Of a stretch of 64,000 bases of DNA, positions 10,665 to 30,900 are shown in pieces; positions within the stretch are counted from its first letter, which is position 1; the number at the start of each line of letters is the position of its first letter. Source of the stretch: Reyranella aquatilis (GTDB lineage: Bacteria; Pseudomonadota; Alphaproteobacteria; Reyranellales; Reyranellaceae); NCBI RefSeq assembly GCF_020880995.1, contig NZ_JAJISD010000002.1:1-64000 (forward strand), read 5' to 3'. The notes below the pieces were generated by a model, which did not search any database, had not been told where the DNA came from, and saw only the letters and a program-made list of their open reading frames with translations. Both the position numbers and the translations under genes were made by a program.

Positions 10665-11786
10665 ATGAAGACGATCATCATCGGCGGCGGCATCATGGGC
10701 CTGGCGACGGCGTGGGGACTCGCGCGCCAGGGACACGACGTCGAGTTGTTCGAACAGGGGCCTCTTCCCAACCCGCTCGCCTCGTCGATGGACGAGCACC
10801 GGCTGATCCGCCACCCCTATGGAACGCATGCGGGCTACGCGCGCATGATCGACGAAGCCTATGCGGCCTGGGATCTGCTATGGAACGACCTCGGCCAGAC
10901 CCTGCATGAACCGACCGGGACGCTGGCGCTGTCGGGCAACGGCGCCGACTGGGCGCAGAATTCCGCAGCCACCCTCGCTTCGATCGGCAGGCCGATGACC
11001 GAACTGTCGATGGAAGAGCTGCCTCGTCGCTTTCCCCTGCTCGACACCAAGGGGCTGGAGCGTGCCTTCTGGATCGAGACGGGCGGCGTTCTGCTGGCGC
11101 AGGACATCGTGTCGGCACTCGCGTCGCATCTGAGTGCCCAACCGCGCGTGAAGCTGCATGCCGGCGTGCCCATCCGGTCAGTGGACCTCGAGCATGGGCG
11201 CGTCGCCACCGACCTCGGCACAACGCACGCCGCCGACGTCGTCGTGGTGGCCGCCGGCGCCTGGGCCTCGCGCCTCGTACCCGACCTGGCCGGACGTGTC
11301 GTGCCCTCCCGGCAAGTCGTGATCTATTTCGATCTGCCGGAGGACCAGCGCCTGCCCTGGGCAAAGGGACCGATGATCATCGAGAAGACAGGCGATGTCG
11401 GTCTGTATCTCGTCCCTCCCGTGCGCGGACGCGGCATGAAGGTCGGCGACCACGAGTTCAGCCGCACCGGCGATCCGACGGCAGCGCGTGACGCGGCACC
11501 GGATGAGATGCGTGCCCTGCTCGACCGCTGCGGCAGCCTGCTGCGGGGCTTCGATCGCTGGAAGATCCGCAACCTGAAGGTCTGCTTCTACAGCGTGACC
11601 GACGACGAGCGTTTCGTCGTCGAGAAGCAGGGCGGCAAGGGCTGGGTGATATCGCCCTGCTCCGGCCACGGCTTCAAGTTCGGCGCGGTGATGGGCCTCG
11701 AACTGGCCCGGACGATCGCCGAGGGTCGCGACGCCGCGGCGCATGCGCGCTGGGCGGCCGGTCTGGCCGGCGATGGGCCGACCTGA
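10665..11786 (+). CDS. FAD-dependent amine/amino-acid oxidoreductase (DAO family)
   Basis: The 373-residue product opens with an FAD Rossmann motif (GGGIMGLATAWGLARQGHDVELFEQ) and has the DAO-type features of monomeric sarcosine oxidase and N-methyl-tryptophan oxidase: SSMDEHRLIRHPY early, VVVAAGAWAS in the middle, and a GWVISPCSGHGFKFG segment near the end where the Cys is the usual covalent FAD attachment site of the MSOX branch. It therefore probably oxidises an N-methyl or secondary amino acid with O2. Exact substrate unknown. It is followed after 33 bases by the sugar-acid dehydratase. Confidence 0.83.
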   Translation: MKTIIIGGGIMGLATAWGLARQGHDVELFEQGPLPNPLASSMDEHRLIRHPYGTHAGYARMIDEAYAAWDLLWNDLGQTLHEPTGTLALSGNGADWAQNSAATLASIGRPMTELSMEELPRRFPLLDTKGLERAFWIETGGVLLAQDIVSALASHLSAQPRVKLHAGVPIRSVDLEHGRVATDLGTTHAADVVVVAAGAWASRLVPDLAGRVVPSRQVVIYFDLPEDQRLPWAKGPMIIEKTGDVGLYLVPPVRGRGMKVGDHEFSRTGDPTAARDAAPDEMRALLDRCGSLLRGFDRWKIRNLKVCFYSVTDDERFVVEKQGGKGWVISPCSGHGFKFGAVMGLELARTIAEGRDAAAHARWAAGLAGDGPT

Positions 11787-11819
11787 CAAAATGCAGTGAA
11801 TTCCGGGAGAGAAACCGAC

Positions 11820-13565
11820 ATGGCATCCGCCAAACGCAGCGCTAAGTCGAAGACCGCATCGAAGAAGGAGACCGGCCTGCGCCAGGGCCTCGCCACCTAC
11901 GGCGACGCCGGCTTCTCGCTGTTCCTGCGCAAGGCCTTCATCAAGGCCGGCGGCTATTCCGACGATGCGCTCGACCGGCCGATCGTGGGCATCACCAACA
12001 CCTTCTCCGACTACAATCCCTGTCACGGCAACGTGCCGGACCTGATCGAGGCGGTGAAGCGCGGCGTCATGCTGGCCGGCGCGCTGCCCATGGTCTTCCC
12101 GACCGTGTCGATCCACGAGAGCTTCTCCCATCCGACCAGCATGTTCCTGCGCAACCTCATGTCGATGGACACCGAGGAGATGATCCGCGCGCAGCCGATG
12201 GATTCGGTCGTGCTGATCGGCGGCTGCGACAAGACGCTGCCGGCCCAGCTGATGGCCGCCGCGAGCGCGGACCGCCCTGCCGTCGTGCTGCCGGTGGGAC
12301 CGATGCTGGTCGGCCATTTCAAGGGCGAGGTGCTGGGCGCCTGCACCGATTGCCGTCGCCTGTGGGGCCAGTATCGCGCCGGCACCTTCTCCGAATCCGA
12401 CATCGAGCAGGTGAGCGAGCGTCTGGCGCCGACCAAGGGCACCTGCATGGTGATGGGCACCGCCAGCACCATGGGCTGCATCGTCGAGACGCTGGGCATG
12501 GGCCTCCCCACGAGCGGCTCGATTCCCGCGACGCACTCGGACCGGCTGCGCATCGCCGAGCAGACCGGCCGGCTCGCGGCCGAAATGGCCGTGAAGCAGG
12601 GTCCCAGGCCCAGCGAGATCATGACAAAGGCGGCCTTCCGCAACGCGCTCACCGTGCTGCAGGCGATCGGCGGCTCGACCAACGCGCTGGTGCATCTCAC
12701 CGCAGTGGCGCGGCGCCTCGGCATCGAGATCGAACTGGAGGAGTTCGACGAGATCGGCCGCAACGTGCCGGTGCTGGTCGACCTCAAGCCATCGGGCGAC
12801 CACTACATGGAGCACTTCCATTGGGCCGGCGGCAATTCGCGCCTGATGAAGGAGATCCGCAAGAACCTCGACGAGAAGTGCCGGACGGTCGCCGGCAAGA
12901 CGCTCAAGCAGGTGATCGATGCGGCCGAAATGGTGCCGGGTCAGACCGTGATCCGCACGCCGGCCAATCCGATCAAGCCGACCGGCGGCATGGCCGTGCT
13001 GCGCGGCAACCTCGCGCCGCGCGGCGCCGTCATCAAGCACGCCGCCGCCTCGCCGTCATTGATGACCCACACTGGCCGCGCCGTGGTGTTCGAATCGCTG
13101 GAGGATCTCGCCGCGCGCGGCGACGATCCCAACCTGGATGTGAAAGCCGACGACATCCTCGTGCTGCGCAATGCCGGTCCGAAGGGCGCGCCGGGCATGC
13201 CCGAGGCGGGCTCCTTCCCCATCCCCATGAAGCTCGCGCGTGCCGGCGTGAAGGACATGATCCGCATCTCCGACGCGCGCATGAGCGGCACGGCGTTCGG
13301 CACCATCGTGCTGCATGTCGCGCCCGAGGCCGCCGTCGGCGGGCCGCTCGCGCTGGTGAAGACGGGCGACCGGATCACGCTCGATGTCCCGAAGCGCAAG
13401 CTGGAACTGCACGTCGACGCGAAGACCCTGGCGGCCCGCCGGAAGATCTGGAAGGCGCCGCCCGCGCATCCTGGCAGTGGCCGCGGCTACACCGGCCTGT
13501 TCTTCAAGACCGTGCTGCAGGCCGACGAAGGTGTCGACTTCGACTTTCTCGGACCGGAAAAGTGA
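11820..13565 (+). CDS. IlvD/Edd family sugar-acid dehydratase
   Basis: The protein is 581 residues and belongs to the dihydroxy-acid/sugar-acid dehydratase family, which uses a [2Fe-2S] cluster and Mg2+ to remove water from aldonic acids. The cluster ligands are Cys68 (NPCHGN), Cys136 (GGCDKT) and Cys209 (GTCMVMGTASTM). The spacing (68 and 73) and GTASTM motif match, from memory, the pentonate dehydratases (L-arabinonate, D-xylonate) better than IlvD. Lys138 is the usual carbamylated ligand. ATG at 11820 has GGGAGA upstream. A basic Lys/Ser-rich tail precedes the core. Its stop overlaps the next gene (GTGA). Confidence 0.85.
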   Translation: MASAKRSAKSKTASKKETGLRQGLATYGDAGFSLFLRKAFIKAGGYSDDALDRPIVGITNTFSDYNPCHGNVPDLIEAVKRGVMLAGALPMVFPTVSIHESFSHPTSMFLRNLMSMDTEEMIRAQPMDSVVLIGGCDKTLPAQLMAAASADRPAVVLPVGPMLVGHFKGEVLGACTDCRRLWGQYRAGTFSESDIEQVSERLAPTKGTCMVMGTASTMGCIVETLGMGLPTSGSIPATHSDRLRIAEQTGRLAAEMAVKQGPRPSEIMTKAAFRNALTVLQAIGGSTNALVHLTAVARRLGIEIELEEFDEIGRNVPVLVDLKPSGDHYMEHFHWAGGNSRLMKEIRKNLDEKCRTVAGKTLKQVIDAAEMVPGQTVIRTPANPIKPTGGMAVLRGNLAPRGAVIKHAAASPSLMTHTGRAVVFESLEDLAARGDDPNLDVKADDILVLRNAGPKGAPGMPEAGSFPIPMKLARAGVKDMIRISDARMSGTAFGTIVLHVAPEAAVGGPLALVKTGDRITLDVPKRKLELHVDAKTLAARRKIWKAPPAHPGSGRGYTGLFFKTVLQADEGVDFDFLGPEK

Positions 13566-14557
13566 CCGACGCCAGGCTTCCGTCGATCTCGGTCGTCGTC
13601 ACGTGCTTCAACTGCCGTGACTACATCGCCGACGCCGTGCGCTCCGTCGCGCACCAGACGCTGCGCGACTTCGAATGCGTGATCGTCGACGACGCTTCGA
13701 CCGACGATTCGGCTACGGTCGTGCAGCACACGCTGGACGAACTGGCGGACCCGCGTTTCCGGCTGGTCCGTCTCGACAAGAACGTCGGACAGACCGGCGC
13801 CACGCGGCGCGGCCTCGCGGAAACGAATGCGACGTTCGTCTGCTTCCTCGATTCCGACGACCTGTGGAATCCGGATTTTCTCGAGCGCCATCTCGCCGCA
13901 CATCTGAATGAGAGCTACGCGGTGGGTTTCACGGCCTGCAACGCGCGGGTGATCGACGGACAGGGCAAGTTGATCGCCGGTGGCTTCTACTGGTTCGGCC
14001 AGGATCGCGCCCGCGCCGATCGCGACAAGTCGTTCGTTCCGATCGATGCCACCCGGGTGCCAACGCTGGACACCACGCAAGGCACAGCCAGATGGCAAGG
14101 CAGCACGCCTTACAGGCTGTACACCAAGCGCGTGGTCCATTGGGTCTGGGTCAGCACCTCCTCGATGATGTTCAGGCGGTCCCTGATCAATCTCGTCTTC
14201 CCAGCCGACGACGAGGTGTTCCGGCTCCACATGGACTTCTACGTCGTCGTCATGGCGCAGATGGTGGCGGGATCGCTGCTGATCGACGAGGCGCTCTATT
14301 CCTATCGCCTTCACGGCCGCAACGGCGCCGCCGACAATCCCGTGCTGGGTGGACGACTGCATCTTTCGAGTCGGAACTGGGGTAGCACCTATTCGACGAT
14401 GCTAGATCGCATGCTCGATGCAATGTTGCGCGATGAGGAGCGTTTCACAACGGCGCTCGGCGATCGGCAGTATCGACGGATGGTGTTGCGAATGCGAGCC
14501 GCGCGCGCAGGTCCCATCGTCGGATTGGCGCATACCATCCGGAGTTGGTTGATCTAG
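13562..14557 (+). CDS. Family 2 glycosyltransferase
   Basis: The 331-residue product has a GT-A fold start: SISVVVTCFNCRDYIADAV, then FECVIVDDASTDDSA (nucleotide-binding Asp) and FLDSDDLWNPDFL, the DXD-like metal site. A later HWVWVSTSSMMFRR segment and YSYRLHGRN are typical of the acceptor half of GT2 enzymes. No membrane segment is visible, so it is probably a cytoplasmic enzyme adding a sugar to a surface glycan or lipid. It starts at a GTG that overlaps the dehydratase stop by four bases, so its translation is probably coupled to that gene although no metabolic link is obvious. Confidence 0.83.
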   Translation: MTDARLPSISVVVTCFNCRDYIADAVRSVAHQTLRDFECVIVDDASTDDSATVVQHTLDELADPRFRLVRLDKNVGQTGATRRGLAETNATFVCFLDSDDLWNPDFLERHLAAHLNESYAVGFTACNARVIDGQGKLIAGGFYWFGQDRARADRDKSFVPIDATRVPTLDTTQGTARWQGSTPYRLYTKRVVHWVWVSTSSMMFRRSLINLVFPADDEVFRLHMDFYVVVMAQMVAGSLLIDEALYSYRLHGRNGAADNPVLGGRLHLSSRNWGSTYSTMLDRMLDAMLRDEERFTTALGDRQYRRMVLRMRAARAGPIVGLAHTIRSWLI

Positions 14558-14623
14558 AAAAAATCCTGCCTCATTCTGCATCGAAGAGATGCCCGCAGGC
14601 TGCGGGACTCGGGGGAGAATCTG

Positions 14624-15991
14624 GTGAGCAGGCTAGGACTTTGCGTGAGCGTCTTCGCTCTGCTGGCCGCCGCCCTGTCGGCGACGATCGTCGGTGTGCG
14701 CCCGGCGATCGCGCAGCAGACGCAGGCCGTCTCGCCCGAACTGGAAGCGGAGTACGATGCCGCCTTCCAGGAAATGCTGAAGAATCCCTCGGATCTCGAC
14801 GTCCTCTTCAAGTTCGCGACCATCGCCTCGAAGACCGGCGACCTCGAAGGCGCGATTTCCGCGCTCGAGCGCATGTTGCTGGTCGACCCGGACCTGCCGC
14901 GCGTCCGCCTCGAACTGGGCGTGCTGTACTACAGGCTGGGCTCCTTCGAGGTGGCCCGCAGCTATTTCGAGGTCACGCTCAAGTCAGCCTCGCTTCCGCC
15001 GGACGTGAAGGCGCGCGCCGAGCAGTTCCTGGCGGAATCCGAGAAGCGCCTCACCAAGTCGCGTTTCACGGGCGAGATCTTCGCCGGCATGCGTTACCAG
15101 TCGAACGCCAATCTCGGCCCGCCGACCTCGAGCGTGCGCCTGTTCGGACAGACGGCCAACCTCAACCAGACGGCGCTGGGAACGGCCGACTGGGGTGCGG
15201 TGACGTCGGGCTTCCTGCGCCATATCTACGACCTCGGCCAGAACAACCCGGCGCAGCTCGAAACCCAGCTCTCGGGCTACCTCAACCGGCAGTTCCAGAT
15301 CCAGGCGGCCAACGTGTCGATCCTCGACCTGACGTCGGGCCCGCGCTTCAAGGCCTTTAACGGCATCTTCGAGGACGTGACGCTGAAACCCTTCGGTACG
15401 GTGGGTTACATCTGGGTCAACGACGTCCCTTACTACGGCAGCTTCGGTTCGGGGCTCGAGGTCGGCACCCTCCTGTCGGACAAGCTGCGGAACACCACGA
15501 ACTTCGTGTGGCGGCGGCAGATGTACCAGAACACCTGGTACATCCCGACCAACAACCAGTTCACCGGCGTGGAGTACTCGGCCAACTCGACGTTCCAGTA
15601 CGCGGTGAATCAGGCCGTGATGCTCTACGCGAACGGCAACCTCCAGCGTTACCAGACCGACAGCACGCCCTGGCAGAACTACATGCTCTACGGTGTCGGG
15701 GGCGGCATGTCCTTCTCCTTCACCGACCCGCTTTTCAAGAGCGAGCTGCCGTGGAGCATCAGCCTGTTCGGCAACGTCCAGTGGTGGTACTATGACCAGC
15801 CGGACGCCGTCGTGGATCCGACCGTTACCCGACAACAAATCGACACGATCCTGAACCTTACTCTGTCGATCCCGTTCGACCAGCGGACGATGTTCACGGT
15901 TTCGGGCGGACGGTTCGTCCGGTCGTCGGACATTCCCAACTACGCGTTCACCAACAACAGTGCGCTCATCGGAGTAACCTGGCGCTTCTAG
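14624..15991 (+). CDS. Slam-like outer-membrane translocon (TPR plus beta-barrel)
   Basis: The 455-residue protein has a signal peptide (cleavage near AIAQQ), TPR-like repeats at about 40-140 (DLDVLFKFATIASKTGDLEG, then VRLELGVLYYRLGSFEVA) and a C-terminal barrel of alternating amphipathic strands ending in the outer-membrane insertion signal TWRF. TPR domain followed by a barrel is the architecture of surface lipoprotein assembly modulators (Slam, DUF560), which move TbpB-type and soluble cargo across the outer membrane. GTG start with GGGGGAG site. Its cargo candidate begins 19 bases downstream. Slam membership is inferred from architecture and context. Confidence 0.7.
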   Translation: MSRLGLCVSVFALLAAALSATIVGVRPAIAQQTQAVSPELEAEYDAAFQEMLKNPSDLDVLFKFATIASKTGDLEGAISALERMLLVDPDLPRVRLELGVLYYRLGSFEVARSYFEVTLKSASLPPDVKARAEQFLAESEKRLTKSRFTGEIFAGMRYQSNANLGPPTSSVRLFGQTANLNQTALGTADWGAVTSGFLRHIYDLGQNNPAQLETQLSGYLNRQFQIQAANVSILDLTSGPRFKAFNGIFEDVTLKPFGTVGYIWVNDVPYYGSFGSGLEVGTLLSDKLRNTTNFVWRRQMYQNTWYIPTNNQFTGVEYSANSTFQYAVNQAVMLYANGNLQRYQTDSTPWQNYMLYGVGGGMSFSFTDPLFKSELPWSISLFGNVQWWYYDQPDAVVDPTVTRQQIDTILNLTLSIPFDQRTMFTVSGGRFVRSSDIPNYAFTNNSALIGVTWRF

Positions 15992-16010
15992 CGCCGCCCA
16001 GGAGAACACA

Positions 16011-17240
16011 GTGGCCTTCAGACTTCCCGGCGTGAACCTGTCCCTGTTGACGGCGGCCCTGCTCGCCGCAGGCTCATCCGCCCTGCTCCCGGCCATCGCC
16101 CATGCCAAGGTCGGCGTGACCTCGGCGACGGACGGCGATCCGCGCGGCAAGCCGCCGGCCGAAGCCGAGCGCGTGCTGCGCGTCGGCATCGACGTGCAGG
16201 CCAACGAATTGATCACCACGTCGGCCAACGACCGCGCCCACCTGATGTTCCTCGACGGCACGTCCCTGTCGGTCGGGCCCAACGCCCAGATCACTATCGA
16301 CAAGTTCGTCTACGATCCCACCACAAAGACGGGCGATCTCGCCATCAATGCGAGCAAGGGGGTCTTCCGCCTGGTCGGCGGCAAGATCAGCAAGACCAAC
16401 GCCATCACGGTCACGACGCCATCGAGCACCATCGGCATTCGTGGCGGCATCAGCCTCTTCAACGTCGAGCAGCGCTCGACCACGTCCGTCTTCGTCTTCG
16501 GCATCAGCATGAGCGTCGGCGCCGGCGGCCAGCTCGAAGTCGTGACCCGTCCGGGTTTCCAGGTGACGACGCTGCTGGGCGGGCAGCCCGGGCGGCCGGG
16601 CGCCGTGCCGCCGGGCACGCTGACGGCAACCCTGGGCCAGCTCGAAGGCGGCCGGGGCGGCCAGCAGGGCGGCGGCGCCGATCAGTCGGCCCAGAATTCG
16701 GGCTTCTCGAACGCCAACTCGGGCCAGGGCTCGGGGAACACGCTGGGCAACCGCTTCGGCAGCGGGCCGGGTCCGCGCAACGTCAATCCCAGCAACATCG
16801 TCACCAACGCCATCAGCAACGCGACCGAAACGGCGCCGTCGAATCTGCCGACCTTGCCCGACAGGATCGTCTCCCAGTCGACGCCGATGCAGCAGACGAT
16901 CACCTACAGCGGCGTGATGGGCGGCCTGGTGAACAACAACGGCAATACCTCGTTCGGAACCGGCACCTATCAGCAGATCTGGTCGATGAATACCGGCACC
17001 GGCAACACCACGGCCAACTTCAACAACAGTACCTACAGCGGCACCACGACCCGCGTCGGCAATTCCGGCTTCCAGGCCACGATGCCGACGACCACGCCCG
17101 CCACGCCCGGCCGCACGATGACGATGAACGGTGCCTTCGTGGGCCAGGGAACGTTCCCGACGAACCAGGCCGGCACCTTCGCGGTCAACGGCCCGAACTA
17201 TCAGGCCGGCGGCGCTTTCGCCGGACAGAAGACTCCCTAG
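16011..17240 (+). CDS. FecR-domain protein with TbpB-like barrel end, putative Slam cargo
   Basis: The 409-residue product has a cleavable signal peptide without a lipobox (IAHA-KVG), a FecR domain at about 40-160 (FLDGTSLSVGPNAQITIDKF, GVFRLVGGKI, TPSSTIGIRGG), a Gly/Asn/Gln-rich linker at about 205-270, and a C-terminal 110 residues of short strands ending in GTFAVNGPNYQAGGAFAGQK. That last motif resembles the closing strands of TbpB-type eight-stranded barrels, the part recognised by Slam. It starts at a GTG with AGGAG upstream. The likely role is a protein exported to the cell surface or medium; no cytoplasmic FecR signalling partner (FecI, FecA) is nearby. Confidence 0.65.
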   Translation: MAFRLPGVNLSLLTAALLAAGSSALLPAIAHAKVGVTSATDGDPRGKPPAEAERVLRVGIDVQANELITTSANDRAHLMFLDGTSLSVGPNAQITIDKFVYDPTTKTGDLAINASKGVFRLVGGKISKTNAITVTTPSSTIGIRGGISLFNVEQRSTTSVFVFGISMSVGAGGQLEVVTRPGFQVTTLLGGQPGRPGAVPPGTLTATLGQLEGGRGGQQGGGADQSAQNSGFSNANSGQGSGNTLGNRFGSGPGPRNVNPSNIVTNAISNATETAPSNLPTLPDRIVSQSTPMQQTITYSGVMGGLVNNNGNTSFGTGTYQQIWSMNTGTGNTTANFNNSTYSGTTTRVGNSGFQATMPTTTPATPGRTMTMNGAFVGQGTFPTNQAGTFAVNGPNYQAGGAFAGQKTP

Positions 17241-17284
17241 AGCGCTTCTGGGCGAGATTGAATCAAGCCGAACATTCAAACAAC

Positions 17285-17395
17285 GACCTCACCCTGAGGA
17301 GCATCGCGCAGCGATGCGTCTCGAAGGGTGGGAACGCGCACCTTGCCTGTTGCCCATCCTTCGAGACGCGGCCTGAGGCCGCTCAGGATGAGGTC
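17285..17395. repeat. Interspersed palindromic repeat (REP/BIME-like)
   Basis: The element has an outer inverted pair, GACCTCACCCTGAGGAGC on the left against GCTCAGGATGAGGTC on the right, and inner units containing CATCGCGCAGCGATG and GTCTCGAAGGGTGGG / CCCATCCTTCGAGAC. The whole 111 bases can fold as a long hairpin. Sequences of the type CTCATCCTGAGGAGC...GTCTCGAAGGATGG are, from memory, abundant intergenic repeats in Rhizobiales and relatives. It lies between convergent genes, a usual REP location. Confidence 0.8.
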
Positions 17396-17422
17396 GGTGG
17401 GTCAATGTGACCTGGAACGGCT

Positions 17423-17926
17423 CTAGCCGACTTTCGTCGCGATGAAGTCAGCGATGGCAGCGATGTCGTCGCGACGGAACCAGGGCAGCGCGGCATCGTG
17501 CGGCCGAACGTCGGACGCGATCGCCACGATGGCGGGATCGCCCGGCGCCAGAGGCTTGGCATCATCGGAGGCACGCACCTCGATCTTGAGGTGCGGCTCG
17601 TTCTTGTAGCCTTCGATCAGAACGAGATCCGACGGCGAGAGGCGCGCCAGAACGTCGGCAATGGACGGCTCGGGCGTCTCGCACAAGATGGCGTAGCGCC
17701 GGCCCCCGACCAGGGCCACCTCCCCCGCCCCGGCGGCGCGATGTCGCCAGGAATCAGTACCGGGCTGGTCGATGTCGATGTCGTGGTGGGCGTGCTTGAC
17801 GGTCGACACACGCCAGCCGCGGCGCACGAACTCCGCCACCAGACGCTCCGTCAGGGTCGTCTTGCCGGCATTCTTCCAGCCGGTGACGCCGAAGACCCGC
17901 TGCCCGGTCACGTCATAATCGCTCAC
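17423..17926 (-). CDS. mobB: Molybdopterin-guanine dinucleotide biosynthesis adapter MobB
   Basis: The 167-residue protein has the MobB P-loop (GWKNAGKTTLTERLV), the VKHAHHDIDIDQPGTDSWRHRAAGA motif and a later DLVLIEGYKNEPHLKIEV segment, all family hallmarks. MobB is a GTP-binding partner of MobA in attaching GMP to molybdopterin, giving the bis-MGD cofactor of formate dehydrogenases and related enzymes. It is the last gene of a tightly overlapping set: its start overlaps the fdhD stop by ATGA. Length is close to the usual 165-175 residues. Confidence 0.92.
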   Translation of the reverse strand: MSDYDVTGQRVFGVTGWKNAGKTTLTERLVAEFVRRGWRVSTVKHAHHDIDIDQPGTDSWRHRAAGAGEVALVGGRRYAILCETPEPSIADVLARLSPSDLVLIEGYKNEPHLKIEVRASDDAKPLAPGDPAIVAIASDVRPHDAALPWFRRDDIAAIADFIATKVG

Positions 17927-18723
17927 GCCGCAATCCGGTCGGCACAGGCATAGGCGGTCAGGCGCCCCTCACGCACGAACGCCACCAGGGCAATGCCCGC
18001 CTGCTCCGCCGTCTCGATCGCGAGCGAGGTCGGGGCGGAGACGGCCGCGATGGCCGAGGCGCCGATGGCGGCGGCCTTCTGCACCATCTCGTAGGAACAA
18101 CGGCTCGTCACGACCACGAAACCGCCGGCAGCGGCCGCGTCGCTTCGCGCAAGGGCACCCGCCAGCTTGTCGAGCGCGTTGTGCCGGCCGACATCCTCGC
18201 GCACGGAGACCAGCCCGCCATCCGGTGCGGCCCAGGCGGCGGCATGCAGCGCCCCGCTCGCCCGGTTGAGCCGCTGCTGCGCCGGCAGCGCCGCCATTGC
18301 CCGCTCGATCGAGAGCCGCGACACGGGCCGGGGTTGCGCCACGCTTGGCACCGTCCGCAGCGCGGCGTCGAGGCTGTCGACCCCGCAGAGGCCGCAGCCG
18401 GTGCGGCCGGCGAGGCTGCGCCGCCGCTCCTGCAGGCCGGCCAAGCGCTGCGCGGCGATCTCGAGGCGCACTTCGATGCCGCGGCCCATCGGCTCGGCTT
18501 CGATGTCGTAGATTTCCGAGGCTTTCTCCACGATCCGCTCGGTGAGGGAAAAGCCGCGCGCGAAATCCTCGAGATCGCACGGCGTCGCCATCATCACCGC
18601 GTGACTGATACCGTTGTAAACCAGCGCCACGGCGACTTCCTCGGCCACCGCCTCCTCCAGCGACTGGCTGCCGCCGGCCGTCAGGCGGCGGGCCGTCCGG
18701 CGCACCGTTCCGTCCCGACTCAT
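17923..18723 (-). CDS. fdhD: Formate dehydrogenase accessory sulfurtransferase FdhD
   Basis: The 266-residue product has the FdhD pattern: EEVAVALVYNGISHAVMMATP, DLEDFARGFSLTERIV, and the active Cys-x-x-Cys in RTGCGLCGVDS. A C-terminal VVTSRCSYEMVQKAAAIG segment precedes the nucleotide-binding-like end. FdhD carries sulfur from IscS to bis-MGD before its insertion into formate dehydrogenase and is required for activity. Its start overlaps the upstream unknown gene and its stop overlaps mobB, so all three are translationally coupled. The enzyme it serves is encoded at 26.3-31.0 kb. Confidence 0.93.
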   Translation of the reverse strand: MSRDGTVRRTARRLTAGGSQSLEEAVAEEVAVALVYNGISHAVMMATPCDLEDFARGFSLTERIVEKASEIYDIEAEPMGRGIEVRLEIAAQRLAGLQERRRSLAGRTGCGLCGVDSLDAALRTVPSVAQPRPVSRLSIERAMAALPAQQRLNRASGALHAAAWAAPDGGLVSVREDVGRHNALDKLAGALARSDAAAAGGFVVVTSRCSYEMVQKAAAIGASAIAAVSAPTSLAIETAEQAGIALVAFVREGRLTAYACADRIAA

Positions 18724-20764: not shown

Positions 20765-20860
20765 TGGCGGAAGAGAGTGGGAGTCGAACCCACTAAGAAC
20801 CGCCTAACGGCCCTCTCTGGCTTTGAAGGCCAGCCGCCCCACCGGGAGCGCTTCCCCTCC
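20765..20860 (-). tRNA. selC: tRNA-Sec (anticodon TCA)
   Basis: On the minus strand the 96-base sequence folds as a bacterial selenocysteine tRNA. It has an 8-base-pair acceptor stem (GGAGGGGA with TCTCTTCC, two G-U pairs), a 6-pair D stem (CGCTCC/GGGGCG) with the short CGGT loop, an anticodon arm CTGGC-CTTCAAA-GCCAG with anticodon TCA, a long variable arm, a 5-pair T stem (GTGGG-TTCGACT-CCCAC), then G and an encoded CCA. The 8+5 acceptor/T arrangement and long D stem separate it from tRNA-Ser. It decodes the UGA in fdoG with the help of SelA and SelB. Confidence 0.95.
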
Positions 20861-20936
20861 AAGGCCGATGATTCACCAGAATGAATCCCCTGTCACCTGC
20901 CGTGCTAGGCTGAATTTTCCCAAGGGAATCAGGATC

Positions 20937-27909: not shown

Positions 27910-30900
27910 TCAGGCCACGGCCGGCGACGAGGCCGGCGGGGTGGTTTTCTTCACATCCACCAGGAACGCCTTGTATTCGGGCGTATTGGTGCTGGCATCT
28001 CCGACCGCAGGCGTCAGCGTGTTCATCGGATATGACTTCCGCGCCATGCCGACGAAGCCGTAGTGGATCGGCAACCCGATCACGTCGCAGGGCTTGCCGT
28101 CGACCATGATCGGCCGGAAGCGCTTGGACACCGACGCCTTCGCCTTGATCATGCCGCGCTGGCTCGAGACCTCGACCCAGTCGCCGTTCTTTATGCCCTT
28201 GGCCTTCGCCAGGCGTTCGCCCATCTCGACGAACATCTCCGGCTGGACCACGACGTTGTCGTGAACGTTCTTGGTCCAGTAGTGGAAGTGCTCGGCGAGA
28301 CGATAGGACGTCGCCACGATCGGGAACTTGTCCGGCGTGCCGAACGACTTGGCATCGGCCGCGAACACCCGCGCCACCGGATTGGTGTTCACCTTGGGGT
28401 GAAGCGGATTGGCGATATAGGCGTCCATCGGCTCGTAGTGCTCGGGGAACGGCCCGTCCGGCATGGCCGTGCGCGAGAACAGCCGCGCCGTGCCTTCCGG
28501 ATTCATGATGAACGGGCCGACCGACTTGTCGGGCGCCACCGTCGGCGCATAGTCCGGCACATCGGCACCGACCCAGCGCGAGCCGTTCCAGGTGATGTAC
28601 TTCTTGCGCTCGCTCCACGCCTTGCCGTCGGGATCGGCCGAGGCGCGGTTGTAGAGGACGCGGCGATTGGCCGGCCAGGCGTAGCCCCAGTTCGGGTGCA
28701 CGCCGAGACCGCTCGGATCGCTGGCGTCGCGCCGCATCGACATGTTGCCGGCCTCTGTATAGACGCCGGTGTAGATCCAGCAGCCGCCCGACGTCTTGCC
28801 GTCGTCGCGCATCACGGCGAAGCCCGGCAGGAGCTGGCCGGCCTTCAGCAGCACCTTCGTGGGATCGGCCGGATCGGGCAGATCCTCCAGCGCGTAGCCG
28901 TTGATCTCCTTGAGGAGTTCGACCGGCTCGGGATGCGCGGGCTTGGCGTAGTCCCAGGTCGTGTTGAGGATCGGGTCCGGGAACGCGCCGCCTTCCTTCG
29001 CGTAGAGCGCCCGCAGCCGGCTGTGCAGGTCGGCGATGATCTCGATGTCACCGCGCGATTCGCCCGGCCCGGCCACCGACTTCCAGTGCCACTGGATGAC
29101 GCGGCTGGAGTTGGTGAAGGTGCCCTCGTCCTCGGCATAGGCCGTGGTCGGAAGCTGGAACACCTCGGTCTGGATCGACTTGGGATCGACGTTGTTGAAC
29201 TCGCCGTGGTTTTCCCAGAACCGCCCCGTCTCGGTCTCCAGCGGATCCATGATCACGAGCCACTTGAGCTTGGACAGACCGGCCTGGACCTTGGCCTTGT
29301 TGGGCGCGGCCATCATGACGTTCAGGCCCTGGCAGAACAGGCCGTTCATCTGGCCGCCCGCCATCATGTCGACGATCTTGAGAACGTCGTAGGCCGTGTC
29401 GAACTTGGGCAGGTAGTCGTAGGCCCAGTCGTTCTCCTTGGTCGCCGCCTTGCCGAACAGGCTCTTCTGCTGGCTGACGAAGAACTTCCCGTAGTTCTGC
29501 CAGAAGCTGGTCTGGCCGGGACGGATCGGCTTGAAGGCGCGCGACTTCATGTAGTCGGCGTAGGTCGCCTCCCGCTCGCTCGGCAGGACAAGGTAACCCG
29601 GCGTCGAGGTGGTGAGCAGTCCGAAGTCGGTGATGCCCTGGACGTTGGAGTGACCGCGCAGCGCGTTCACGCCACCACCCGGGATGCCCATGTTGCCCAG
29701 CAGGAGCTGGATCATGGCCATGCTGCGGATGTTCTGTGCGCCGGTCGTGTGCTGCGTCCAGCCCAGCGCATAGAGCGAGGTCATCGAACGCTCGCCGTTG
29801 GCCGTCGAGGCGATCAGCTCGCAGACCTTCAGGAACTTGTCCTTCGGCGTGCCGCAGATCCGCTCGACCATCTCGGGCGTGTAGCGCTCGACATGGGCCT
29901 TCAGGAGGTTGATGGCGCAACGCGGGTTCTGCAGGGTCTCGTCGACCTTGGCCATGCCCTGCTCGTCGAACTCGTACTCCCACGTCGTGCGATCGACGTA
30001 GTTCTTGCGGGCCTCGTCGTAGCCCGTGAACAGTCCGTCCTCGAACTTGAAGCCTTCCTTCACGATGTAGGAGGCGTTGGTGTAGGCATTGACGTACTTC
30101 TGATGGATCTTGCCGGTGCCCAGCAGGTAACGCATCACGCCCGACAGGAACGCGATGTCCGTGCCAGGCCGGATCGGTGCATAGAGGTCCGAAACCGCGG
30201 CCGAGCGCGTGAAGCGCGGATCGACCACGATGAGCTTGGCGCCGTTGTTGGCCTTTGCCTCGACGACCCACTTGAAGCCGCAGGGATGGGCCTCGGCGGC
30301 ATTGCCGCCCATGATCAGGACGACATCAGCGTTCTTGATGTCGTTCCACGAGTTCGTCATCGCGCCACGTCCGAATGTGGGGCCAAGACTGGCCACCGTC
30401 GGTCCGTGTCATATTCGGGCTTGGTTCTCCAAGGCCAGGATGCCGGTGGACCGGATGGCCTTGTAGGTGAGGTAACCCGCCTCGTTGCTGCAGGCCGAGC
30501 CGGCCAGGAAGCCGGTGCTCACCCAGCGGTTGACCGTGACGCCGTCGCGATTCTTCGCGATGAAGTTCTTGTCGCGGTCTTCCTTTGCGAGCTTGGCGAT
30601 GCGCTCCATCGCGAAGTCCCAGCTCACGCGCTCGAACTTGTCGGAGCCGGGCTTGCGGTGCATCGGATACTGCAGGCGGTTCACGCTGTTGGCGAATCCC
30701 AGCGAGGCCGCGCCGCGCGCGCACAGCGTGCCGCGGTTGATTGGATTGTCCGAATCGCCCTCGATATGAAAAGCCCGCGCCTTGCCGTCCTTGGTGCCGT
30801 CGGCCGACGAGTAGACGAGGACGCCGCAACCCACCGCGCAGTAGGGGCAGGTATTGCGTGTCTCGGTCGCCTTTTCGAGGCGGTACGGCCTGACGTTGGC

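Follow-up and report, generated by a model that had tools for sequence, protein, structure and literature searches.

A FecR-domain protein with a TbpB/NHBA-type barrel as the predicted cargo of a divergent Slam-like translocon in Reyranella aquatilis

Two neighbouring genes of the alphaproteobacterium Reyranella aquatilis raise the question of whether a FecR-domain protein can be the cargo of an outer-membrane translocon. They lie in the first 64,000 nucleotides of contig NZ_JAJISD010000002.1 (assembly GCF_020880995.1; this whole stretch is called the window below) as two open reading frames (ORFs) on the forward strand with 19 bases between them, at positions 14624-15991 (455 amino acids) and 16011-17240 (409 amino acids), both with a GTG start. 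An earlier interpretation made from the DNA letters, hereafter the original prediction, took them for a Slam-like channel and for a protein in which a FecR domain is joined to a TbpB-like barrel. Our analysis supports this interpretation overall: the pair is probably a divergent type XI secretion system (T11SS; Slam/DUF560) translocon with a dedicated soluble cargo that bears the FecR domain and the barrel. The homology of the first protein to Slam, the predicted folds of both proteins (including the TbpB/NHBA-type barrel and the FecR domain), the conserved linkage of their genes and their co-occurrence across genomes are observed here, and export itself we infer.

The first gene encodes a predicted outer-membrane protein (OMP) with the architecture of Slam, as originally proposed. 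Behind a putative Sec signal peptide (residues 1-30, positions 14624-14713), which was judged by eye with a cut after AIA and lies in a stretch of low predicted local distance difference test (pLDDT) scores (residues 1-36), we found a periplasmic tetratricopeptide repeat (TPR) domain (residues 38-143, positions 14735-15052) and a DUF560/SlipAM-type beta-barrel (residues 146-455, positions 15059-15988). Residues 67-131 matched TPR_9 of Pfam (E=1.5e-9), and TPR_Slam was matched weakly (E=0.005). The AlphaFold2 model (mean pLDDT 79) consisted of helices at residues 38-143 followed by exactly 14 strands at residues 146-454. Because direct Pfam assignment failed (PF04575 for the OMP, PF01298 for the C-terminal barrel of its partner), relatives and independent hidden Markov models (HMMs) were needed. 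For a canonical-Slam HMM we combined the barrels of 11 Slam-type proteins (PF04575 E 7e-35 to 7e-22), all taken from other genomes in the class; as the window OMP was left out, the search was an independent test. It matched the window OMP at E=2e-14, and gave 93 matches among 15,453 ORFs (overlapping and redundant loci included), of which 92 belonged to the window OMP family and the 93rd came from another genome, where this OMP adjoins a FecR gene. By hhalign, the window-OMP family and the canonical Slam barrels were aligned over 268 columns (99.2%, E=2.6e-19). All 20 aligned family members matched TPR_Slam (best 7e-5), and 12 of them also had a PF04575 match (E up to 10, best 1.3e-5). A PF04575 search of the window's own genome gave nothing, and none of 14 control genomes matched either. 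The best fold matches of the OMP barrel were CymA and OmpG (Z about 21); no Slam structure was among the fold matches listed, and a sequence search of the PDB with one canonical Slam returned TPR proteins and unrelated weak matches, leaving no solved Slam for comparison. Judged by sequence, the window OMP is thus a homologue of the DUF560/Slam barrels, a relationship on which the original prediction had staked itself.

The second gene encodes the predicted cargo, in which the AlphaFold2 model placed beta strands at residues 53-188, a low-confidence linker and eight C-terminal strands. A predicted Sec signal peptide (residues 1-32, positions 16011-16106) was read by eye with a cut after AHA, and the protein contains no cysteine and hence no lipobox; the claim of a non-lipid signal peptide therefore held as to lipidation, while the signal peptide itself remains a judgement by eye. 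Also among 54 FecR-barrel proteins, a list that includes some near-duplicates, a lipobox-like pattern was seen in just three (the first gene of L016, L197 and L279). Residues 68-162 matched the FecR family PF04773 (E=3.7e-9) with no other Pfam match at E up to 1, and the FecR domain was delimited as residues 53-188 (positions 16167-16574). The top fold match of model residues 63-214 was the C-terminal signalling domain of PupR (6ovk; Z 16.2, rmsd 2.6, 137 aligned residues), followed closely by the Parabacteroides protein BDI_1681 (Z 16.1, rmsd 2.3, 135 aligned). The flexible linker of the original prediction corresponds to about residues 215-294 (positions 16653-16892), where pLDDT was below 50 at residues 215-223 and 231-294, and its length varies among relatives.

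The iron-sensing logic behind the original prediction is not supported. No anti-sigma N-terminal domain was found in the Pfam scan of the window FecR protein, and no sigma factor, FecI, FecA or TonB receptor was found among the genes inspected at positions 10665-18723, the rest of the window and genome not having been scanned; the stated lack of FecI/FecA thus holds for these genes. With no sigma or TonB partner found among these neighbours, we rejected the idea that the FecR domain senses iron. The domain also occurs in Lsa33 of Leptospira, for which laminin binding and likely surface exposure are reported in the accessible text of PMC3444417; the window protein matched the NCBIfam model Lsa33 at E=1.8e-8, below the cut-off of that model. 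Another FecR-domain protein is listed in a protein table in the available part of a paper on the Legionella type II secretome (PMC12239567).

The C-terminal end of the cargo (residues 296-407, positions 16896-17231) was modelled as exactly eight strands, with pLDDT values of 86-95 in 10-residue blocks from residue 301 on and of 66 for residues 291-300. This barrel resembled NHBA (5o1r; Z 14.3, rmsd 2.3, 105 aligned), the TbpB C-lobe (5kkx; Z 12.4, rmsd 2.7, 112 aligned), fHbp (Z 12.3, rmsd 2.3, 102 aligned) and HphA (Z 11.6, rmsd 3.1, 104 aligned). At the sequence level, 10 of 24 aligned C-terminal barrels matched TbpB_B_D (best 4.9e-6) and six matched FHBP_C (best 1.5e-4), and a search of 177,635 distinct PDB sequences with the C-terminal barrel profile (E up to 10) returned three matches, all of them NHBA (best 1.6e-4). 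The hhalign comparison with canonical cargo barrels gave 94.7%, against 0.2% for controls that comprised FecR and the OMP barrel and included no unrelated eight-stranded barrel; at E<1, a canonical TbpB HMM found 9 of 60 C-terminal barrel ORFs, and it also picked up one unrelated ORF (E=0.15). Two loci bridge the families: in L213 a SlipAM/PF04575 protein (8e-14) lies beside a 910-amino-acid protein with both FecR (1.3e-9) and TbpB_B_D (2e-4), and in L220 a canonical Slam (1e-32) lies beside a 356-amino-acid TbpB_B_D protein (3e-19) that is also matched by the C-terminal barrel profile. The end of the second protein is thus predicted to be a TbpB/NHBA-type eight-stranded barrel, as had been proposed.

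Two further features of FecR partners were observed. FecR proteins of other families (L280, L283, L284, L286, L287, L292-L296) bear a different beta-rich C-terminal domain, several of them with a DFGART-like motif; that the C-terminal domains of some FecR proteins between L280 and L296 are the same barrel found no support by hhalign (1.4% and 6.8%). Furthermore, a conserved C-x(1-3)-C ... WG motif, which may form a disulfide or bind a metal, was present in 43 of the 54 FecR-barrel proteins (for instance L016:8035-10866 and L213:4622-7351), about 150-195 residues from the C-terminus in most long cargo proteins and near residue -790 in two double-barrel proteins. The 11 proteins without the C-x(1-3)-C motif were eight short ones of the window type and three long ones (L187, L208, L288).

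The pairing of the two genes was then followed across genomes. In a relatives set of 61 genomes, of which 37 belong to the genus, the OMP profile was matched in 32 of the 37 genus genomes (in a few by the TPR part or fragments only), and a FecR gene lay directly downstream of 39 of 40 distinct OMPs (19 with a C-terminal barrel, 17 without a detected one and 3 cut by the contig end); in the sole exception, L082, FecR lies just upstream of the OMP. In the class set, FecR was downstream of 40 of 61 distinct OMPs (21 with a C-terminal barrel, 17 without a detected one, 2 cut), with 20 lacking FecR downstream and 1 cut, proportions that are biased because the loci were selected by matches to the C-terminal barrel (L182-L221) or to the OMP (L250-L309). 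Contig-cut partners were tallied apart in these counts, and at least two frameshifted ORFs (L077, L109) are included among those without a C-terminal barrel. None of the 12 testable canonical Slams had FecR downstream, a thirteenth being cut by its contig. As relatives both inside and outside the genus have the pair, C-terminal barrel included, it reflects more than chance.

Co-occurrence was also observed at the level of whole genomes. Of 385 genomes of the class, 32 gave the C-terminal barrel and 100 matched the OMP profile, which was matched in 31 of the 32 barrel genomes versus 69 of the 353 others (Fisher p=3e-19, not corrected for kinship; the match in G384 was partial and weak) and, at E up to 1e-40, in 30 of 32 versus 13 of 353. 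The thirty-second genome, G203, has a canonical Slam whose neighbour is the C-terminal barrel match. Among 40 loci around C-terminal barrel matches, FecR and the barrel were in one ORF in 28, and the OMP was also present in 17 of these 28. In trans the picture is mixed: half of the 20 class OMPs that lack a FecR gene downstream (10) sit in genomes with a C-terminal barrel elsewhere. G316 has six C-terminal barrel places and one OMP found, in searches that score only the best candidates, and two FecR-barrel genes follow one OMP in L014, L016 and L017 (the first of L017 being frameshifted). A phylum-wide search gave two C-terminal barrel matches in 299 genomes, both in the class of the window, in a sample for which the number of other classes was not determined. 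Some cargo variants were seen as well: at L184:3414-8357 and at L189:4468-9360 a FecR ORF runs to about 1640 codons and contains two barrels of this C-terminal type, and L097:4899-6131 on the reverse strand, beside a TPR-barrel OMP, encodes a FecR protein that ends in a pretoxin-HINT domain (PF07591, E=5e-12), which is another C-terminal module on the same FecR head.

The pair is read as a translocon and its soluble cargo by analogy with TbpB and Slam1 and with the idea of a two-domain cargo made of an effector head and a targeting barrel (PMC9100927, available text). The cargo would cross the inner membrane by Sec, its signal peptide being removed without lipidation, and would be kept unfolded in the periplasm, by analogy with TbpB, which, according to the accessible part of PMC9090332, crosses Slam1 unfolded with the help of Skp. 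The TPR domain of the OMP, its barrel or both would then recognise the cargo via the FecR head, the C-terminal barrel or both, after which the 14-stranded barrel would let the cargo out onto the surface or into the medium. Outside, the C-terminal barrel would fold, and the FecR domain borne on the linker might, speculatively, serve as a ligand-binding or adhesive head.

Several observations weigh against this reading. The window OMP itself gave no direct match to PF04575 (SlipAM) in the Pfam scan, and the window's own C-terminal barrel matched neither TbpB_B_D (PF01298) nor FHBP_C and was missed by the canonical TbpB HMM. By fold, OmpX (1qj9) and Ail reached a Z of 13.6, similar to NHBA, and for this reason the fold search was rejected as sole proof of a Slam cargo. 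FecR partners without a detected barrel were frequent (17/40 in the relatives set and 17/61 in the class set, counts that include some broken ORFs). Of the 20 class OMPs that have no FecR gene downstream, the remaining 10 were in genomes where no C-terminal barrel was found, three of them (L267, L293, L294) with FecR genes nearby in a different position. Moreover NHBA, which has the nearest barrel, is reported in the accessible text of PMC5500766 to be unaffected by Slam1 in Escherichia coli. In view of this report and of the many barrel-less FecR partners, the assumption that the barrel is the part that Slam recognises may not hold.

Which part of the cargo is recognised was considered from the evolution of the family. 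A tree of 77 OMPs placed the 68 family members (58 with FecR downstream and 10 without) and 9 canonical Slams on opposite sides with a support of 100. Within the family, partners with and without a recognised C-terminal barrel interleave, with at least 8 changes, a number that is too high because L269, L277, L279 and L288 were scored as barrel-less and have divergent barrels; other FecR partners, mostly of about 290-430 amino acids, are without a barrel by eye. A third form in the genus consists of TPR-only genes, of which 12 of 14 in the relatives set had FecR downstream, none with a C-terminal barrel; across both sets there are 15 TPR-only ORFs, two of which (L101, L253) are fragments of OMP genes that are broken. 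As TPR-only genes also pair with barrel-less FecR proteins, TPR and FecR form the constant core. Stand-alone TPR genes with a barrel-less FecR protein carrying GPLQGAGPLQ-like repeats were noted at L031:6038-8055, in the window's own genome, and at L085, L087 and L093. The window's own genome also has, at L030, a paralogous OMP whose partner is barrel-less.

Evolutionary distances were compared over 26 adjacent pairs, out of 29 FecR-plus-barrel pairs; the three excluded were L026 and two with broken or split ORFs, L017 and L024. OMP distances followed FecR distances (partial r 0.45 for the TPR domain and 0.66 for the outer-membrane barrel, with 0 of 2000 permutations as high) and not those of the C-terminal barrel (0.09 and -0.02, respectively). 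In closer pairs, the link between outer-membrane barrel and FecR stays positive and that with the C-terminal barrel does not, while the partial r between TPR domain and C-terminal barrel climbs to 0.42 in the closest 33 comparisons. This pattern is confounded since FecR adjoins the OMP gene and the C-terminal barrel lies at the far end of the cargo gene, and recombination in the linker of the cargo gene could yield the same pattern. Because OMP divergence tracks FecR, barrel-less partners are common and TPR-only genes pair with FecR, we tentatively raise, as a minority view within the export reading, that in this OMP clade FecR is the docking signal rather than the C-terminal barrel, so that barrel-less FecR proteins would also be cargo and the barrel a swappable passenger. 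On this view the stand-alone TPR proteins would bind FecR in the periplasm as carriers that feed the translocon or are descended from it.

The same evidence serves a different explanation, which we consider improbable though the most serious of the rivals, namely that the FecR protein is not exported and works with the OMP in the periplasm, for instance as an envelope sensor, gate or plug that the TPR domain holds, its C-terminal barrel being accessory or membrane-associated. The constant TPR-FecR core, the 12 of 14 TPR-only ORFs with FecR and no C-terminal barrel downstream and the tracking of FecR by OMP distances would fit such a partner. By sequence, however, the C-terminal barrel is of the T11SS cargo kind, it co-occurs with the OMP across genomes also when the two are not neighbours (10 OMPs), and six C-terminal barrel places for the one OMP found in G316 fit a translocon better than a stoichiometric plug. 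Much less probable still is export of the FecR-barrel protein by another route, with an unrelated role of the adjacent OMP: the report that Slam1 left the surface exposure of NHBA unchanged in E. coli is a precedent for it, but it leaves the adjacency and co-occurrence of the OMP and FecR-barrel genes unaccounted for. Least of all do we expect the OMP to be a polysaccharide-export TPR-porin of the BcsC, PelB or PgaA kind with the FecR protein as a matrix or regulatory protein, although BcsC came first and PelB fourth when the OMP model was ranked by Foldseek, and although a gene of glycosyltransferase family 2 (GT2) lies directly upstream in the window and 21 of 25 loci have a homologue of it in their flanks. 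Against this kind of porin, the closest matches of the barrel are canonical Slams by sequence and CymA and OmpG by structure, GT2 occurs with homologues of other, unrelated neighbours, and no polysaccharide synthase was found among the neighbours examined. The 25 Pfam families listed for 20 OMP-family members included none of the BcsC, PelB or PgaA kind.

The surroundings of the pair were recorded in the window, which belongs to a genome of 6.0 Mb; the nearest OMP relative found, at 96% identity, was in a metagenome-assembled genome labelled Reyranella sp. The genes at 10665-18723 include an oxidase and an fdhD-like gene (both by eye) and, by Pfam, an ILVD_EDD dehydratase, GT2 and mobB. Homologues of these neighbours recur around window-type pairs, as the flanking GT2 exemplifies, and were not found around the other FecR loci of the same genome (L030-L032), in a comparison of presence and not of order. 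GT2 as a dedicated glycosyltransferase of the cargo was considered and is unnecessary to explain the pair. On the reverse strand, mobB and the fdhD-like gene (17423-18723), a tRNA-Sec gene (20765-20861) and a SECIS_3 element (30356-30414) lie close to the pair; co-occurrence of formate dehydrogenase with T11SS is mentioned in the accessible text of PMC12282271, and the closeness of these elements may be mere neighbourhood.

Returning to the translocon and its FecR-barrel cargo, the claim that FecR is a new type of cargo agrees with the literature searched, in which no FecR head of a T11SS cargo was found. 'FecR' is absent from the main text of the T11SS papers PMC8406197 and PMC12282271 and of the 2017 Slam survey PMC5449769, and the available part of PMC12282271 names ten cargo architectures without a FecR type among them. 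In the open literature we found no paper linking FecR to DUF560, T11SS or Slam, although the pairing may sit in a supplementary table. A FecR head as predicted T11SS cargo would thus be without a prior description known to us. In 2021, nine of ten T11SS sequence clusters were without a characterised member (PMC8406197), and in 2017 the motif recognised by Slam was merely predicted to lie in the cargo barrel, with experiments still needed (PMC5449769, accessible text). A large alphaproteobacterial group that keeps FecR while the barrel comes and goes is therefore a natural experiment on Slam recognition, and the pair predicts a new class of extracellular FecR proteins; docking by FecR, if true, would give type XI secretion a second code of recognition.

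Compared with known regulators, the window protein shares the FecR domain fold with FecR/PupR anti-sigma proteins (PF04773; 6ovk), but lacks a detectable anti-sigma N-terminal domain, is fused to a C-terminal barrel and has no FecI/FecA among the neighbours inspected. With Leptospira Lsa33/LipL45 it shares the FecR domain and, if exported, the likely surface exposure reported for Lsa33, which differs in being a putative lipoprotein for which the available part of PMC3444417 mentions no Slam partner. The C-terminal barrel of NHBA (GNA2132) is the closest of the cargo type by fold and the only PDB profile match, whereas NHBA differs as a lipoprotein that is reported to be unaffected by Slam1 in E. 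coli and for which no FecR domain is mentioned in the accessible text of PMC5500766. The T11SS OMPs (Slam1/Slam2, NilB, HrpB; DUF560/PF04575) resemble the window OMP in the N-terminal TPR domain, the 14-stranded barrel, homology at the HMM level and a gene beside that of a TbpB-like-barrel protein with an apparent Sec signal; the window family differs in standing apart in the tree, in lying mostly near or below Pfam detection and in its FecR partners, partly barrel-less, and the window pair has no TonB receptor among the few neighbours examined. Finally, the soluble T11SS cargo proteins (hemophilin/HphA and HrpC) and the TbpB/fHbp lipoproteins share the C-terminal eight-stranded barrel with the predicted cargo, and hemophilin also the apparent non-lipid Sec signal, whereas the predicted cargo of the window is set apart from all of them by its FecR head and disordered linker.

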